25,946 bases of DNA from a virus: the IMG/VR virus record IMGVR_UViG_3300008267_000316, positions 1 to 25,946 of that record. One strand, 5' to 3'. A program made the position numbers and the translations under genes. Under the pieces are notes generated by a model. It made no database searches. It was not told the origin of the DNA and was given only the letters and a program-made list of their open reading frames with translations. This document shows, one piece after another, positions 2,960 through 23,960 of the stretch (within the stretch, counting starts at the first letter, position 1; each line of letters starts with the position of its first letter).

Positions 2960-3463
2960 ATGAAAAGGGTAGTTTTAACATTAGCATTAGCAGTTATAGG
3001 TTTAACAACTAACGCACAGAGAGATTTATATGCACCAGGTGTATACATAGACACAACAGCAGAGTTAGGGTCTTTTGATAACCCATACATAGTAGATAGT
3101 TACAAGGATGCGGATCCATATGTTTGGTTCTACCAAGAGAATTGGAACAGACACCTAAGATTAGGCAAGTGCATGTACGGAATGAAGCATGACATGAAGG
3201 ATTACGCAGAGGGCCTGATAAAAGAAATAGGTAAGGGTATCTACGACTACGACAAAATAGAGACAGAGTATAGAATAGACTGGGACGTAATTGAGGAAAA
3301 CGGAGCACATTACACAATTACATTAGAAATGGCAACAGAAACAGCTGAGTTATATATAAATGAGCTGTCTCAAGAGGAGCATATAAATGTTCTTAAACTT
3401 TTCAAAAAACAATATATAAAAGAATACGGTGAAGAACTAGTAGAACAATGGTTAGCATACTAA
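2960..3463 (+). CDS. Secreted or periplasmic protein with signal peptide, 167 aa
   Basis: The frame is open from 2873, but the start chosen is the ATG at 2960 because it begins a classic signal peptide: MKRVVLTLALAVIGLTTNA, then QRDLY, with cleavage expected after NA as is common in Bacteroidota. The mature part of about 148 residues is acidic and aromatic, with one Cys and no further membrane segment. It has its own putative promoter (imperfect box TTATTTTG at 2866-2873, long leader) and a terminator directly after it, so it is probably monocistronic. I do not recognise the family. A phage protein sent to the host envelope could alter the surface, block other phages or aid lysis; none of these is shown here. 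Confidence 0.75.
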   Translation: MKRVVLTLALAVIGLTTNAQRDLYAPGVYIDTTAELGSFDNPYIVDSYKDADPYVWFYQENWNRHLRLGKCMYGMKHDMKDYAEGLIKEIGKGIYDYDKIETEYRIDWDVIEENGAHYTITLEMATETAELYINELSQEEHINVLKLFKKQYIKEYGEELVEQWLAY

Positions 3464-3472
3464 AAAAAATCG

Positions 3473-3502
3473 AGCCCACTGTTGTGGGCTTACTTATTTT
3501 TC
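3473..3502 (+). terminator. Terminator after the secreted-protein gene
   Basis: AGCCCAC (3473-3479), loop TGTT, GTGGGCT (3484-3490) make a 7-bp stem followed by tacttatttttc. An A run precedes it, so it could also act leftward. It leads straight into a degenerate promoter box for groEL. Confidence 0.8.
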
Positions 3503-3532: not shown

Positions 3533-5137
3533 ATGGTAATTAAGCAAATATTTCTAGACGAAAAGGGTCGTCAGCAGCTAAAAAATGGTATAAATAAGAT
3601 ATCTGACGCTGTTGCATCAACACTAGGCCCAGGAGGTCAGACTGTTTTAATAGAGTCTGAACAGCATGTAGGAGGGGTAACAGTAACGAAGGACGGTGTA
3701 ACTGTTGCAAAGTCAATAAACCTATACAACCCAGTAGAGAACCTTGCGGTGCAGCTTGTACGTGAGGCCGCATCAAACACTGCGAAGATGGCTGGTGACG
3801 GTACCACAACAAGTATCGTACTTACAAGGGACCTGATAGACTCGTATGACTGGGTCACTAGGTCGTATGACAAGTACAACAAGACAGAGGTCCTTCGTAG
3901 CATACAGAAGATATGTGACGAGTTGGTTGAGAGTCTTGACAAGATGGCTAAGCCAGTTCTTGGCAAGAGGCTTCTTGACGTTGCTACAATCTCTGCGAAC
4001 AACGACCCAGTTATCGGTAAGTTGATCGCTGACGTTTATGACAAGGTTAAGTTTGTAACTGTTGAGAACAACACCAAGACAAACAACACGTACTCCGAGA
4101 TTATTAACGGTATACGAGTGCAGAGAGGATGGACATCACGACACTTTGTTACTGACCACAAGAAGATGGAGTGTGTGTTCGAGGACGCATACGTGCTCAT
4201 CACAGATCACGAGATCACTAACCTAGCGCACATAGAGTCAATACTTAAGAGGGTTGTGGCTGAGCGTATCCCACTACTTGTGATAGGCCAGTTGGCTCCA
4301 CAGGTGGCAGCTACGATTAATATGAACGTACTAGAGAAGAAGATTAGGTTCTGCAACATCATTCCGCCATCTATGGGATACAGGAAGGATGAGTTGATGG
4401 AGGACATCGCTGTTTCTCTAGGGGGCCACTACTACAGCCAAGCAACTGGGGACAACCTGTCCCTATGTACGTTTGATGGACTGGGTAAGGCAAAGAAGAT
4501 TATTATTGGACAGGACTCAACGGTTATAGTTCCAGATGAGATGTATGTAGACAATAACGATGTTTATTCTCACGTGTCAGACCTTAAGATGCTTATCGAG
4601 GAGGAGAAGGACGAGAGCTATATCAACTTCTTGAACGAGCGTATTGCGAACATATCTGGAGGGATAGGCATCATATATGTTGGTGCTGACTCAGATATAG
4701 AGCAGAAGGAGTTACGAGACAGAGTTGACGATGCCGTATTAGCTGTAAAGGCTGCGATAGACGAAGGAATTCTTCCTGGTGGAGGGATATCACTAATAAA
4801 CGCATTAAACAAGCTTAGAACGAACAGTAGGAACTACAGCATCGAGAGAGAGATCGCTATTGTTATAATGGATAATGTTGTTAAGTCACCACTATTCCAG
4901 ATATGTAGAAACGCAGGAGTTGATCCAGAGGAGTGTTACTTGAACGTACAGTTTACAAAGGACGGGTATGGTTACGATGTGAAGAACAACAGGTACGGTG
5001 ACATGATCAAGATGGGTATTATCGATCCTGCGAAGGTAACAAAGAATGCGATAAAGAATGCGGTGTCTGTTGCAACAACGATACTAAGTACTAATGCAAT
5101 AATAACAAACGTAAGAGAGAATGAAAGCGTTGAATAG
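3533..5137 (+). CDS. groEL: Phage-encoded GroEL-type chaperonin (Cpn60), 534 aa
   Basis: An ATP-driven folding cage. Conserved features sit where expected: the equatorial N-terminal motif STLGPGGQTVLI (29-40), the nucleotide-binding loop GDGTTT (88-93, Asp89 matching GroEL Asp87), and VDDAVLAVKAAIDEGILPGGG (398-418, Asp400 matching the catalytic Asp398, followed by the glycine triplet). The apical domain (about 190-375) is much more diverged. Length is close to the bacterial 540-550, but the C-terminal Gly-Gly-Met tail is absent; it ends NVRENESVE. groES follows with a 17-nt overlap, so the order is opposite to the usual bacterial groES-groEL. Codon use is richer in G/C-ending codons (AAG, GAC, AAC, TAC) than most of the window, suggesting later acquisition or translational tuning. 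Folding of capsid or tail proteins is the likely role. Confidence 0.96.
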   Translation: MVIKQIFLDEKGRQQLKNGINKISDAVASTLGPGGQTVLIESEQHVGGVTVTKDGVTVAKSINLYNPVENLAVQLVREAASNTAKMAGDGTTTSIVLTRDLIDSYDWVTRSYDKYNKTEVLRSIQKICDELVESLDKMAKPVLGKRLLDVATISANNDPVIGKLIADVYDKVKFVTVENNTKTNNTYSEIINGIRVQRGWTSRHFVTDHKKMECVFEDAYVLITDHEITNLAHIESILKRVVAERIPLLVIGQLAPQVAATINMNVLEKKIRFCNIIPPSMGYRKDELMEDIAVSLGGHYYSQATGDNLSLCTFDGLGKAKKIIIGQDSTVIVPDEMYVDNNDVYSHVSDLKMLIEEEKDESYINFLNERIANISGGIGIIYVGADSDIEQKELRDRVDDAVLAVKAAIDEGILPGGGISLINALNKLRTNSRNYSIEREIAIVIMDNVVKSPLFQICRNAGVDPEECYLNVQFTKDGYGYDVKNNRYGDMIKMGIIDPAKVTKNAIKNAVSVATTILSTNAIITNVRENESVE

Positions 5138-5402
5138 TTTTATTCTTGTTTTGCCAATGGAGCTAGAGAAGCAGGAGTCCAGTACAGGGCTCTTGCTATC
5201 TGGAATGGAGACGGCAAAGCAGAGATATCAGCAGGCAGAGGTACTGCTTGTAAGTGAGGACCTACCAAGAGATGAGAACGGTGAGCCAGTACTAGTTTCT
5301 GGAGATATTATAGCGTATGACGCTGTACAGGGTCACGACTATAGGATGGACGGTAAGAACTATAGAATAATTATGTATAGGGATGTTGCTTTGATTCTTT
5401 GA
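5121..5402 (+). CDS. groES: GroES-type co-chaperonin (Cpn10), 93 aa
   Basis: The lid partner of the chaperonin. Length and layout fit the family: N-terminal strand NSFILVLP, a mobile-loop region with QESSTGLLLSG (about 19-29) whose hydrophobic LLL stands in for the IVL/IML that docks on GroEL, then AEVLLVSEDLP, VSGDIIAYDA and a C-terminal strand ending MYRDVALIL. It starts inside groEL (17-nt overlap), which suggests translational coupling and a matched pair. Its last 32 bases overlap, tail to tail, the end of the regulator gene on the - strand, so convergent transcription may interfere. Confidence 0.9.
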   Translation: MKALNSFILVLPMELEKQESSTGLLLSGMETAKQRYQQAEVLLVSEDLPRDENGEPVLVSGDIIAYDAVQGHDYRMDGKNYRIIMYRDVALIL

Positions 5403-5886
5403 TCTCTTTATTGAACTGGTTTATTGCCATAGCGTAAACCTTATCCGTGTAAGGCGCAGTCTTTTTAAATATAGGGTTGCGCCTTTCTGATGTTGGTATA
5501 GGTTCCTCTCCGTTAAGCTTCTTGTAGATACTGAACACCATTCTCTTGGCCTTATACGTTAGTTCGTACAGCCTGGCCTCGTGATGCCCTGCTGCTCTCC
5601 AAACGTGCACTAGTCCCTTGTTTTGTAGCTTGTATATCCTTCGTTTATCCCAGGAGAATATGTTGTTGTACTGCTCGAACTTTGAGATGGTAAACAGCTT
5701 CTCGTCATACAGGAAGAATAGTATCTCAAGCTCTGGCATAGTGATATCGTATGTACGCATTGCCCAGTACCTAATAACACGGTAGTACTTCATGTAGTTG
5801 TACTTAACCTCGGTTCTATCGCACACAAGGACCTTACGCTTTCTTTTTTTGACGTATACCTTCTTTCTTTTAACTACTGGGACCAT
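5371..5886 (-). CDS. Winged helix-turn-helix DNA-binding protein, 171 aa
   Basis: The only confident gene on the - strand. After a very basic start (VVKRKKVYVKKRKRKV), residues of about 45-125 look like a winged helix: MPELEILFFLYDEKLFTISK, then SWDKRRIYKLQNKGLVHVW as probable recognition helix and wing, then ARLYELTYKAKRMVFSIYKK. This layout resembles MarR-like and other phage wHTH regulators. The frame could start at a TTG (5895), but the ATG at 5886 is preferred because it lies 6 nt from a perfect -7 box (5900-5893), predicting a leaderless mRNA. Its promoter overlaps a 9-bp inverted repeat shared with the fibre promoter, so autoregulation and control of the fibre gene are likely. The 3' end overlaps groES by 32 nt. 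Confidence 0.8.
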   Translation of the reverse strand: MVPVVKRKKVYVKKRKRKVLVCDRTEVKYNYMKYYRVIRYWAMRTYDITMPELEILFFLYDEKLFTISKFEQYNNIFSWDKRRIYKLQNKGLVHVWRAAGHHEARLYELTYKAKRMVFSIYKKLNGEEPIPTSERRNPIFKKTAPYTDKVYAMAINQFNKEIKESKQHPYT

Positions 5887-5887
5887 A

Positions 5888-5916
5888 TGTCGCAAAAATA
5901 TGCTAAATTTGCGACA
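5888..5916. promoter_or_regulatory. Palindromic operator between divergent genes
   Basis: TGTCGCAAA (5888-5896) and TTTGCGACA (5908-5916) are a perfect 9-bp inverted repeat with an 11-bp spacer. Each arm contains the TTTG end of a -7 box facing outward, so a dimeric repressor bound here would cover both promoters. The obvious candidate is the winged-helix protein whose own promoter is one of the two. Binding is inference; the symmetry is seen directly. Confidence 0.75.
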
Positions 5917-5924
5917 AGAACAAA
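5893..5924 (-). promoter_or_regulatory. Promoter of the winged-helix gene
   Basis: On the - strand, TTTG (5924-5921), a 20-nt spacer and TATTTTTG (5900-5893) match the full Bacteroidota -33/-7 consensus. This is the only promoter in the window for which I found both elements at the expected spacing. The ATG follows the box by 6 nt, so the transcript should be leaderless or nearly so. Confidence 0.75.
5904..5911 (+). promoter_or_regulatory. Fibre-gene promoter, -7 box TAAATTTG
   Basis: An exact TAnnTTTG box only 3 bp from the opposing box on the other strand and partly inside the inverted repeat. It lies 17 nt before the ATG at 5929, which therefore is the likely start of the fibre gene. No clear TTTG is found at the -33 position. 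Confidence 0.65.
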
Positions 5925-5928
5925 CAAT

Positions 5929-7413
5929 ATGAGTATTTTCCCAAGGCCACTTAAGAAGGTTCTAGATAAAATAATACCATTCTCTCAAGAGGACAAGATA
6001 CCTACATTTAACTTGGGTACTGGCACTGCGGATAATACTACATATCTAAGGGGTGACGGAACGTGGGCTACTCCTACTGGAGGAGGTGGTGGAATGCTTA
6101 GCGGAACAGCTACAGCAGCTGTTACAGATGTTTATACAACAACAATAACTGGAGTAACCTCATATACTACTAATGATGCTTACATTATAAAATTTAATAC
6201 AGACAACGTTAATGGAGCTACATTAAACATTAACGGATTGGGTGCAATAAATCTTGTTAAGAATAATGATGTAGGGGTTACTGGAGGTGATATAAGGGTT
6301 GGTCAGGAGTTCTTGGTTGTGTATGACGGTACAAACTTTCAGATGATTGGTATAGCTCCTAACCAGATGTTTGCATATGTAACAAATGCTGACAGTGTAA
6401 CAATTAATAAGGGACAGCCAGTATATGCATTTGGAGCAACTGGTGACAGGATGTCTGTAAAACTTGCATATAATACAAGTGATGCAACATCAGCAAAGAC
6501 AGTGGGTCTTGTATTCAGCAGCTCTATTCCTTCAAACGGCACAGGGTTTATTATAACTCAGGGTGTAATACAGAACTTGAATACATCTATGTACTCTCCA
6601 GGAGCTACATTATATGTAGGGGCTACGGCAGGTACTCTTACTTCTACTAAGCCATACGCACCAAATCACTTGGTGTATGCAGGTATTGTTGAGAGGGCGA
6701 ACGCTGGTAACGGTCAGATATATGTAAGGGTACAGAATGGTTACGAGTTAGATGAGATACATGATGTATATATAAATCCAGCAACAATCTCTAATAATGA
6801 TTTATTGCAGTATAACTCTTCTACGTCACTTTGGAATAATAAAAGTTTGAGTGCAGCTGGAGTTCAGCCAACACTTGTATCTGGTACAAACATTAAGACT
6901 ATTAACTCAACAAGTTTATTGGGAAGTGGTAATATAGTAATAAATGGAAATCCATCATTAGGCGTAGTTACAGGAGTTAATATTACAGGTACATTGGCAG
7001 TTAGTAAAAGTGCATCAGTATTAATACCTGCAAATTCAATTACACAACCAACAGTATTAGAAGTAATATCAAGGGCAATTCGTGTTAGTGGTACAGGAGC
7101 AACAATTTATCATGATTTTTACATAAATACAACGGATTCATTAACAGGTGCAACATTATTAGGTACATTCAATACGATAACTACATCAAATACAATTGGT
7201 CAAGGCGTTAGACAATTATTTATAGATACATCAGTAAATCAATTGTCTGTAATATTTGCAGGTGTAACAATAGGTGCAGATTATATTAATACATTAACAT
7301 CAACAATTACGTTTAATCCTGCCAATAATTATTATATCATTTTTGCAGTAAAATTATTTAATACAGGTGATACAAGCAGAACGCAATTTGGATTAATAAA
7401 AAAATATGTATAA
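5929..7413 (+). CDS. Tail fibre / receptor-binding protein, 494 aa
   Basis: A modular, glycine/serine/threonine/asparagine-rich beta protein. After a short basic N-terminus (MSIFPRPLKKVLDKIIPF) come TTYLRGDGTWATP with a glycine run (about 37-58), a motif frequent in phage fibres; beta-rich repeats; a second fibre-type linker GTNIKTINSTSLLGSGNIVI (about 322-341); and a C-terminal beta domain of about 130 residues. The frame is open from 5887, but the ATG at 5929 is preferred because the promoter box at 5904-5911 lies between the two. From about 6950 the DNA changes style to A-ending codons (ACA, TTA, GCA, CAA), consistent with exchange of the receptor-binding tip. An 8-nt overlap joins it to a 70-codon gene that shares the A/T-rich style. 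Confidence 0.8.
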   Translation: MSIFPRPLKKVLDKIIPFSQEDKIPTFNLGTGTADNTTYLRGDGTWATPTGGGGGMLSGTATAAVTDVYTTTITGVTSYTTNDAYIIKFNTDNVNGATLNINGLGAINLVKNNDVGVTGGDIRVGQEFLVVYDGTNFQMIGIAPNQMFAYVTNADSVTINKGQPVYAFGATGDRMSVKLAYNTSDATSAKTVGLVFSSSIPSNGTGFIITQGVIQNLNTSMYSPGATLYVGATAGTLTSTKPYAPNHLVYAGIVERANAGNGQIYVRVQNGYELDEIHDVYINPATISNNDLLQYNSSTSLWNNKSLSAAGVQPTLVSGTNIKTINSTSLLGSGNIVINGNPSLGVVTGVNITGTLAVSKSASVLIPANSITQPTVLEVISRAIRVSGTGATIYHDFYINTTDSLTGATLLGTFNTITTSNTIGQGVRQLFIDTSVNQLSVIFAGVTIGADYINTLTSTITFNPANNYYIIFAVKLFNTGDTSRTQFGLIKKYV

Positions 7414-7628: not shown

Positions 7629-7636
7629 TATATTTG
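7629..7636 (+). promoter_or_regulatory. -7 box TATATTTG, leaderless start
   Basis: An exact box, with only 4 nt between it and the ATG at 7641. A T-rich stretch (tttttattta) precedes it as in the terminator cassettes, but no hairpin is seen here. Confidence 0.7.
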
Positions 7637-12112: not shown

Positions 12113-12304
12113 ATGAAAAGAAAAGTAGTTAAAACTGGAAAACAAACAGTATCTTATACTGTAGATGGAAAAGACTATAATGCTGTTGAAAAGAAAAAAA
12201 CAGTTTATGGTAGAGATGGTTTAGTTAAGAAAACTGTAGTTAAAACTAAAGGAACTCCAGGGTCAGTTATAGGTAGATCCAAAGAAGTTAAGAGATACAA
12301 ATAA
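12113..12304 (+). CDS. Small basic hypothetical protein, 63 aa
   Basis: A lysine-rich, probably beta-rich protein: VVKTGKQTVSYTVDGKDY, then VEKKKTVYGRDGLVKKTVV, then a Gly/Pro turn and a basic tail. It has no Cys, signal or membrane segment. The ATG lies 14 nt after the previous stop in an A/T-rich leader, so it probably shares the lysis transcript. It is followed by a promoter for the next gene. No family recognised. Confidence 0.65.
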   Translation: MKRKVVKTGKQTVSYTVDGKDYNAVEKKKTVYGRDGLVKKTVVKTKGTPGSVIGRSKEVKRYK

Positions 12305-12310
12305 ATTTAT

Positions 12311-12318
12311 TAAATTTG
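12311..12318 (+). promoter_or_regulatory. -7 box TAAATTTG, leaderless start
   Basis: An exact box, 4 nt before the ATG at 12323. No -33 element and no hairpin terminator in front. Confidence 0.7.
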
Positions 12319-12322
12319 TATC

Positions 12323-12760
12323 ATGGGAAAAATTAATAACTATACAGTTGATCCAGTTAATCCTGGTGATAAGATACTAGCATCTGACGCTAATACTGGA
12401 GACACTAAGAATGTTTCTGCTCAATCTATATCAGATTTACAGACATCTCAAACTATATATAGAGCATATTTAACTCAATCTGGAAGTAATCCTCCAGTTG
12501 CTACAGAGCTTCCTGGAAACACGTTAACTGGAACATGGGAGTATGATGGTACGGGAGTTTATATATTTGCTACTGATGGAGCATTTAATGGTGTTAATGT
12601 AGGTGTTATTTGTTCTATACTTACTAGTTATAATTATTCAGTGGTGAATGATGGAAATAATAATGATTTGTTATATATTCTAACGTATAATGTAAGTACG
12701 TTAACGGATAATATATTGAATAATACATATATAGAGATATTTACACACGATAACTTATAA
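12323..12760 (+). CDS. Putative tail-associated structural protein, 145 aa
   Basis: The N-terminus (NYTVDPVNPGDKILASDAN, then TGDTKNVSAQSI, about 6-37) resembles the start of tail-fibre or baseplate-attached proteins, and the rest (about 44-145) is a beta-rich domain with TGTWEYDGTGVYIFATDGAF. The overall make-up (Gly, Asn, Thr, Ser, no Cys except one) fits an exposed virion protein. It has its own leaderless promoter and a terminator after it, so it is probably monocistronic. It may be a short fibre or a head-surface protein; the exact place is not clear. Confidence 0.65.
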   Translation: MGKINNYTVDPVNPGDKILASDANTGDTKNVSAQSISDLQTSQTIYRAYLTQSGSNPPVATELPGNTLTGTWEYDGTGVYIFATDGAFNGVNVGVICSILTSYNYSVVNDGNNNDLLYILTYNVSTLTDNILNNTYIEIFTHDNL

Positions 12761-12774
12761 CGCAAACAACAACT

Positions 12775-12803
12775 AAATCCACATCAAAAGTGTGGATTTT
12801 TTT
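12775..12803 (+). terminator. Terminator with T-tract running into a promoter
   Basis: AAATCCACA (12775-12783), a 7-nt loop and TGTGGATTT (12791-12799) form a perfect 9-bp stem followed by a run of seven T (12797-12803). The T run continues as ATTATATTTG, the next promoter's -7 box. Confidence 0.88.
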
Positions 12804-23933: not shown

Positions 23934-23960
23934 AAAGGTCACAATTTGTGACCTTTTTTT
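23934..23960 (+). terminator. Terminator of the third terminator-promoter cassette
   Basis: AAAGGTCACA (23934-23943), a 3-nt loop and TGTGACCTTT (23947-23956) are a perfect 10-bp stem followed by seven T (23954-23960), directly continued by ATTATATTTG. Confidence 0.9.

Follow-up and report, generated by a model that had tools for sequence, protein, structure and literature searches.

A perfect palindrome at positions 5888-5916 of a podovirus-like phage record is probably, with a rough probability of 60%, an orphan operator for a host-encoded AbiEi protein (DUF6088; AbiE type IV toxin-antitoxin) that lies over the phage's own promoters. Judged from its sequence, the element matches the operator-promoter of abiE operons, in identical register on the Bacteroidota -7 box: it fits GTC-nn-AAA-N11-TTT-nn-GAC perfectly, belongs to the GC type that is also present at host abiE, and overlaps a TAnnTTTG -7 box, with the TTTG in the arm, on both strands of the window, by which we mean the whole 25.9-kb virus record (25,946 nucleotides) under analysis. 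We propose further, at slightly less than even odds, that Bacteroidota phages of unrelated families have independently put one promoter each under the operator of the host AbiE antitoxin and have tracked the AbiEi alleles by symmetric switching.

The left arm (TGTCGCAAA, 5888-5896), a perfect 9-bp GC-type AbiEi half-site, is separated by an 11-bp spacer (AATATGCTAAA, 5897-5907) from the equally perfect 9-bp right arm (TTTGCGACA, 5908-5916). This inverted repeat had been described in an earlier note on the same DNA, together with two opposed -7 boxes separated by 3 bp and, for the leftward one, a TTTG -33 element at 20 nt, and all of these features were confirmed. The rightward box (TAAATTTG, 5904-5911, + strand) and the leftward box (TATTTTTG, 5900-5893, - strand) leave only positions 5901-5903 between them, each has its TTTG inside one palindrome arm, and both fit the sigma-ABfr -7 element of Bacteroidota, for which the consensus TAHHTTTG and a distance of 4-5 nt from element to start were measured in Flavobacterium johnsoniae (PMC6847099). 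The leftward -33 TTTG (CAAA at 5921-5924, - strand) lies 20 nt from its -7 box, and no TTTG or TTG was found within 26 nt upstream of the rightward box; the -33 element is generally weak (PMC6847099). With the F. johnsoniae spacing the predicted starts fall at 5888/5887 (- strand) and 5916/5917 (+ strand), the outer edges of the palindrome, and the leftward mRNA (ATG at 5886-5884) is predicted to be nearly leaderless and the rightward mRNA (ATG at 5929) to carry a leader of about 12 nt.

A lone 9-bp palindrome is weak evidence against chance, with 8 seen in the window against 2.65 expected and several of these being terminators. Simulated sequence resembling the window, 12 Mb in all, contained no 9/11/9 palindrome that was in register with TAnnTTTG. 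The window holds a second perfect 9/11/9 palindrome (GATACAAATAAATTTATTAAATTTGTATC, 12294-12322) over the -7 box TAAATTTG, which ends just before an ATG at 12323 and shares the geometry of the site at 5888-5916 while its arms are unrelated. TAnnTTTG boxes (for example TATATTTGcactATG) were also seen 3-5 nt before structural-region gene starts at 7629, 9450, 10291, 12311, and 23963, a pattern that would leave many late mRNAs almost without a leader, and some of these boxes come right after a terminator hairpin (23934-23956, 12775-12799).

The terminase of the phage shares 67% identity with its MW202828 counterpart and about 42% with the terminases of the Flavobacterium elemo phages and Maribacter phage Panino; a DNA search with the window region returned no named relatives. 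Profile searches placed groEL at 3533-5137 and groES at 5121-5402 (both + strand), followed by the leftward gene (5371-5886, - strand), which encodes 171 aa from the ATG at 5886 and matches phrog_17028 (E 1.4e-13). The proposal that this gene encodes a winged-helix protein is supported by its AlphaFold model (pLDDT 76), whose top matches belong to the MarR family and which points to a MarR-like winged helix. The rightward gene (5929-7413, + strand, ATG at 5929; the predicted start is preceded by a further ATG in frame, at 5887) gave no match in profile searches and has no assigned family, and no profile backed its designation as a tail fibre. Neither an AbiEi nor an AbiEii gene was found within the window by ORF and profile searches. 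Positions 1-700 form a low-complexity left end with M/C/Y-rich ORFs unlike the rest, possibly a chimera or an assembly artefact.

The layout, a dyad operator over divergent promoters, is repeated in MW202828, where the regulator is a 41% match and an AC-type palindrome with spacer 10 and one -7 box per strand lies between an HNH gene and the winged-helix gene. The earlier note had taken the winged-helix protein as the ligand of a private, autoregulated switch, and had suggested checking relatives for conserved arms with co-varying changes. The arms are perfect in the window and at six relative loci, with one base of the left arm altered at a seventh, that of the close relative L003, and symmetric type switches do occur (see below); in most relatives, however, no site lies directly upstream of the regulator. 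The palindrome was absent from that position in L055, L011, L098, L093, Panino, and elemo, and in elemo no such palindrome was found even with up to 3 mismatches. It forms the groEL promoter instead in L055, L011, and L098/L099. That the MarR-like protein of the phage binds the palindrome and autoregulates itself and the divergent gene would agree with the position of the palindrome next to the regulator gene, both in MW202828 and in the lineage of the window, and with a palindrome a few kb from the groEL-groES-regulator module in L055, L011/L098, and L093. Among 32 phage records with the palindrome, however, just 5 encode the protein, all of them from the virus group of the window, and it is missing from the other 27, including several of 65-117 kb; its recognition helix is unlike that of GC-type AbiEi, and the same site serves host AbiE operons that have no such winged-helix protein. 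As the main reading this private switch is therefore unsupported, and we rate it as rather unlikely, though the winged-helix protein may take part in the window lineage.

For the bacterial counterpart the 29-bp element was searched against 84,980 bacterial and archaeal genomes, which yielded at least 119 loci, mostly in Bacteroidota. Among the 119 matches listed, 80 had AbiE genes and 78 lay directly upstream of AbiEi, here a protein of about 205 aa (DUF6088, PF19570, E 2.4e-66), with the gene of the AbiEii toxin (PF08843) coming next. The AbiEi-oriented consensus of the matches listed was TTTTGTCGCAAATATTTACTAAATTTGCGACAAAA, and the rightward strand of the window shares with it CTAAATTTG, including the C that precedes the -7 box. 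At the AbiE sites among the matches listed, the -7 box was present on the AbiEi strand in 69/77 and on the opposite strand in 15/77, and 20 nt was the commonest promoter-like spacing (10/77). A sample of 198 Bacteroidota genomes, 42 with and 156 without DUF6088, was searched for the palindrome with up to one mismatch; it was found in five genomes, all DUF6088-positive, and in none of the 156 DUF6088-negative ones (p about 0.002 with the genome used as the centre left out). In three of the five it was immediately upstream of the DUF6088 gene and in one it lay no more than about 250 bp away. Since the GC palindrome was confined in this sample to DUF6088-positive genomes, we regard it as an AbiE operator, and the site of a global host regulator was rejected on the same count. 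At one host abiE locus (L630 of genome G258, 3381-3498) two palindromes precede a single AbiEi gene, one of the AC type (TGTCACAAATTCCGACAAGATTTGTGACA) and one of the GC type 89 bp further, and a near-copy of the former stands at 3480 of L629 before a possible AbiEi remnant.

DUF6088 genes without the GC palindrome had a like structure with GTC-CC, GTC-AC, GTC-AG, or more distant discriminators, the arms of the AC type being TGTCACAAA/TTTGTGACA. In a comparison of operators with the helices of 95 AbiEi proteins, recognition-helix residues 37/40/44 followed the discriminator and were among the columns highest in mutual information or uncertainty coefficient. These residues were K, then S, N, Q, G, or A, then E in the GC type; E, D, or T, then R, then Q or V in the AC type; E, then K, then L, F, or Y in the CC type; and A, D, and S in the AG type. 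The GC-type protein of L179 (SKAIQKSLERL) and the AC-type protein of L130 (SDAIRKALDRL) are 80% identical overall; L527, with a CC operator and an AC-like helix, is an exception. An AbiEi tree built without columns 37/40/44 requires at least 8 changes of operator type, and the helix residues change with the type in all supported independent pairs, of which there were only three (p 0.25). Because the helix residues covary with the discriminator bases, AbiEi is very probably the ligand of the palindrome. A sequence search for a solved structure related to DUF6088 gave no match.

The spread of the palindrome among viruses was determined by scanning 2.9 million viral contigs for the GC arms with spacers of 8-14, which gave 96 stretches with 100 matches. 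The preferred spacer was 11 (80/100), and a control palindrome with the arms reversed gave 20 stretches, 3/20 with spacer 11. The exact spacer-11 palindrome falls into about 33-34 viral clusters whose flanks have no mutual DNA similarity; it is neither a product of chance nor private to the phage of the window. Phage records of 60-117 kb generally carry one exact site each. As a DNA query, the palindrome matched MW202828 and an intergenic AC-type site in the Tenacibaculum jumbo phage pT24; in the cultured pT24 (LC168164) positions 46052-46086 are 97% identical to the AC consensus over 35 nt. At L066 (892-920, TGTCGCAAATTTGCGACAAATTTGCGACA) the arms overlap and a third half-site falls inside the spacer.

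AbiE genes were found at 0/100 viral loci with the GC palindrome and DUF6088 in 0/50 whole palindrome-bearing viral records (Pfam), the same search recovering DUF6088 in 5/8 bacterial genomes as a positive control. Among the proteins of 13 large palindrome-bearing phage records there was neither a phage-encoded AbiEi homologue at E<=10 nor an AbiEi-like winged helix. A shared phage DNA-binding protein as the ligand was also considered and rejected, the top family occurring in only 7/13 of these large records and being the portal protein. The genes behind the phage sites encode GroEL, RecA, terminase-like proteins, ribonucleotide reductase, primase, MazG-like and HNH proteins, and others of no known function; the RecA N-terminus as a query against named phages gave no match. 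The -7 box was present in register in 55/80 phage clusters and lacking in 25/80, and a gene start followed within 30 nt on 29/70 box-bearing strands vs. 13/90 strands without a box. That many unrelated phages carry the operator without toxin-antitoxin genes suggests that they tie a promoter of their own to a host defence protein. The promoters so coupled, tentatively and with the balance just short of even, would be those of groEL, recA, the terminase operon, ribonucleotide reductase, primase, and the gene in the window.

Spacer 11 was also frequent among viral sites of other types, with 84/120 for the AC type among the matches listed, 17/29 for the TC type, 16/28 for TGTCCC, and 11/16 for CGTCCC; the viral AG type prefers spacer 12 (71 at 12 and 39 at 11 among the matches listed). 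AG-type palindromes (TGTCAGAAA) with an AbiEi gene directly downstream were seen at L425, L432, L457, L489, L491, L502, and other viral loci, and represent phage-borne or prophage AbiE. At orthologous promoters of related phages the discriminator switches symmetrically in both arms between GC, AC, CC, and TC. Such pairs are L082/L020 (GC) vs. L305/L363 (AC) with unchanged spacer, L031 (GC) vs. L294 (AC) at recA, L021/L048 (GC) vs. L523/L540 (CC), L055 (GC) vs. L560 (TC) at groEL, L076 (GC) vs. L300 (AC), and L308/L358 (AC) vs. L554 (TC); the switches were found via a perfect-palindrome search, so that asymmetric intermediates, of which L003 is one, are under-sampled. It is very improbable that the sites are remnants of AbiE cargo or random palindromes on a promoter: AbiE is present on a few viral contigs (AG and AC types), yet about 34 independent clusters have perfect arms, the arms switch symmetrically, and the GC-type loci without AbiE and the simulated sequence without a match argue in the same direction. 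Another alternative, that AbiE evolved as a phage sensor whose operator copies a phage promoter element needed by another factor, and that infection titrates the antitoxin and frees the toxin, would account for the wide spread of the element among phages and for the host operators that match it. We consider it improbable, as no common phage factor was found and arm mutations would let phages escape, yet the arms are perfect or symmetrically switched.

Under the AbiEi-operator reading, the AbiEi protein of a host that has a GC-type AbiE would bind both arms, cover the two -7 boxes together with the two predicted starts, and repress the winged-helix gene and its rightward neighbour. Relief would come from titration of AbiEi by replicating phage DNA, or from depletion or absence of the protein. 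In this way the status of a host defence system would set the timing of one phage operon or be a condition for its expression. Such a coupling across unrelated phages, to which we give a little under an even chance, would be a DNA-level tie between lytic gene expression and the host abortive-infection system. Counted against the AbiEi-operator reading are that the gain for a lytic phage from repression by a host antitoxin is not obvious, that 25/80 phage clusters lack a -7 box, that the TC type, predicted blind from the phage sites, was found at host AbiE in 0/396 genomes (a weak result with only about 2 expected), and that the CC type is the commonest in the host sample yet rare in phages. 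A pure decoy, in which a multi-copy phage site titrates AbiEi and disturbs host AbiE while promoter control is incidental, shares the AbiEi logic and is inseparable here from promoter control, since both use the same AbiEi binding. The unrelatedness of the phages, their differing genes, and the boxless clusters speak for it; we nonetheless find it unlikely given the usual single exact site per phage genome, the in-register -7 box in most clusters, and the closer gene starts on boxed strands.

If the AbiEi-operator reading is true, the antitoxin of an anti-phage system also regulates the transcription of phage genes, and how an infection ends would depend on the host AbiEi allele. The operator-helix code (GC, AC, CC, AG) is testable by allele swaps in Flavobacterium and offers a sequence handle on AbiE triggering or evasion for type IV systems. 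Our literature search found no paper connecting antitoxin operators and phage genomes, and DUF6088 was rarely named in the literature searched.

The closest experimental parallel is Streptococcus agalactiae, where AbiEi has been shown to repress abiE via TGTTGCTTTTA-N27-TAAAAGCAACA (PMC3985639; PMC7319586). There too an inverted repeat lies over the promoter and is bound by the winged-helix N-terminal domain of AbiEi, which represses the operon, and the half-sites are alike (TGTTGC in S. agalactiae vs. TGTCGC here). The outer ends span 49 bp in S. agalactiae vs. 29 bp here, a difference of 20 bp or two helical turns; the S. agalactiae system also differs in its Firmicute promoter, its longer spacer, its COG5340 rather than DUF6088 antitoxin, and in controlling abiE and not a phage gene. 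The Bacteroidota abiE operons (PF19570 and PF08843) have identical arms, spacer 11, the same -7 box register, and a gene start shortly downstream, whereas the site in the window fronts phage genes in a phage without AbiE genes. Host repressors are known to act at phage promoters, as LexA does at CTX-phi. In both cases a phage promoter is under a host regulator, but here that regulator would be an anti-phage antitoxin and the operator occurs in several allelic types across unrelated phages. Phage phi-TE likewise has part of a host toxin-antitoxin locus for abortive infection in copy, namely pseudo-ToxI; this is an RNA antitoxin mimic, whereas the palindrome described here would be a DNA operator.
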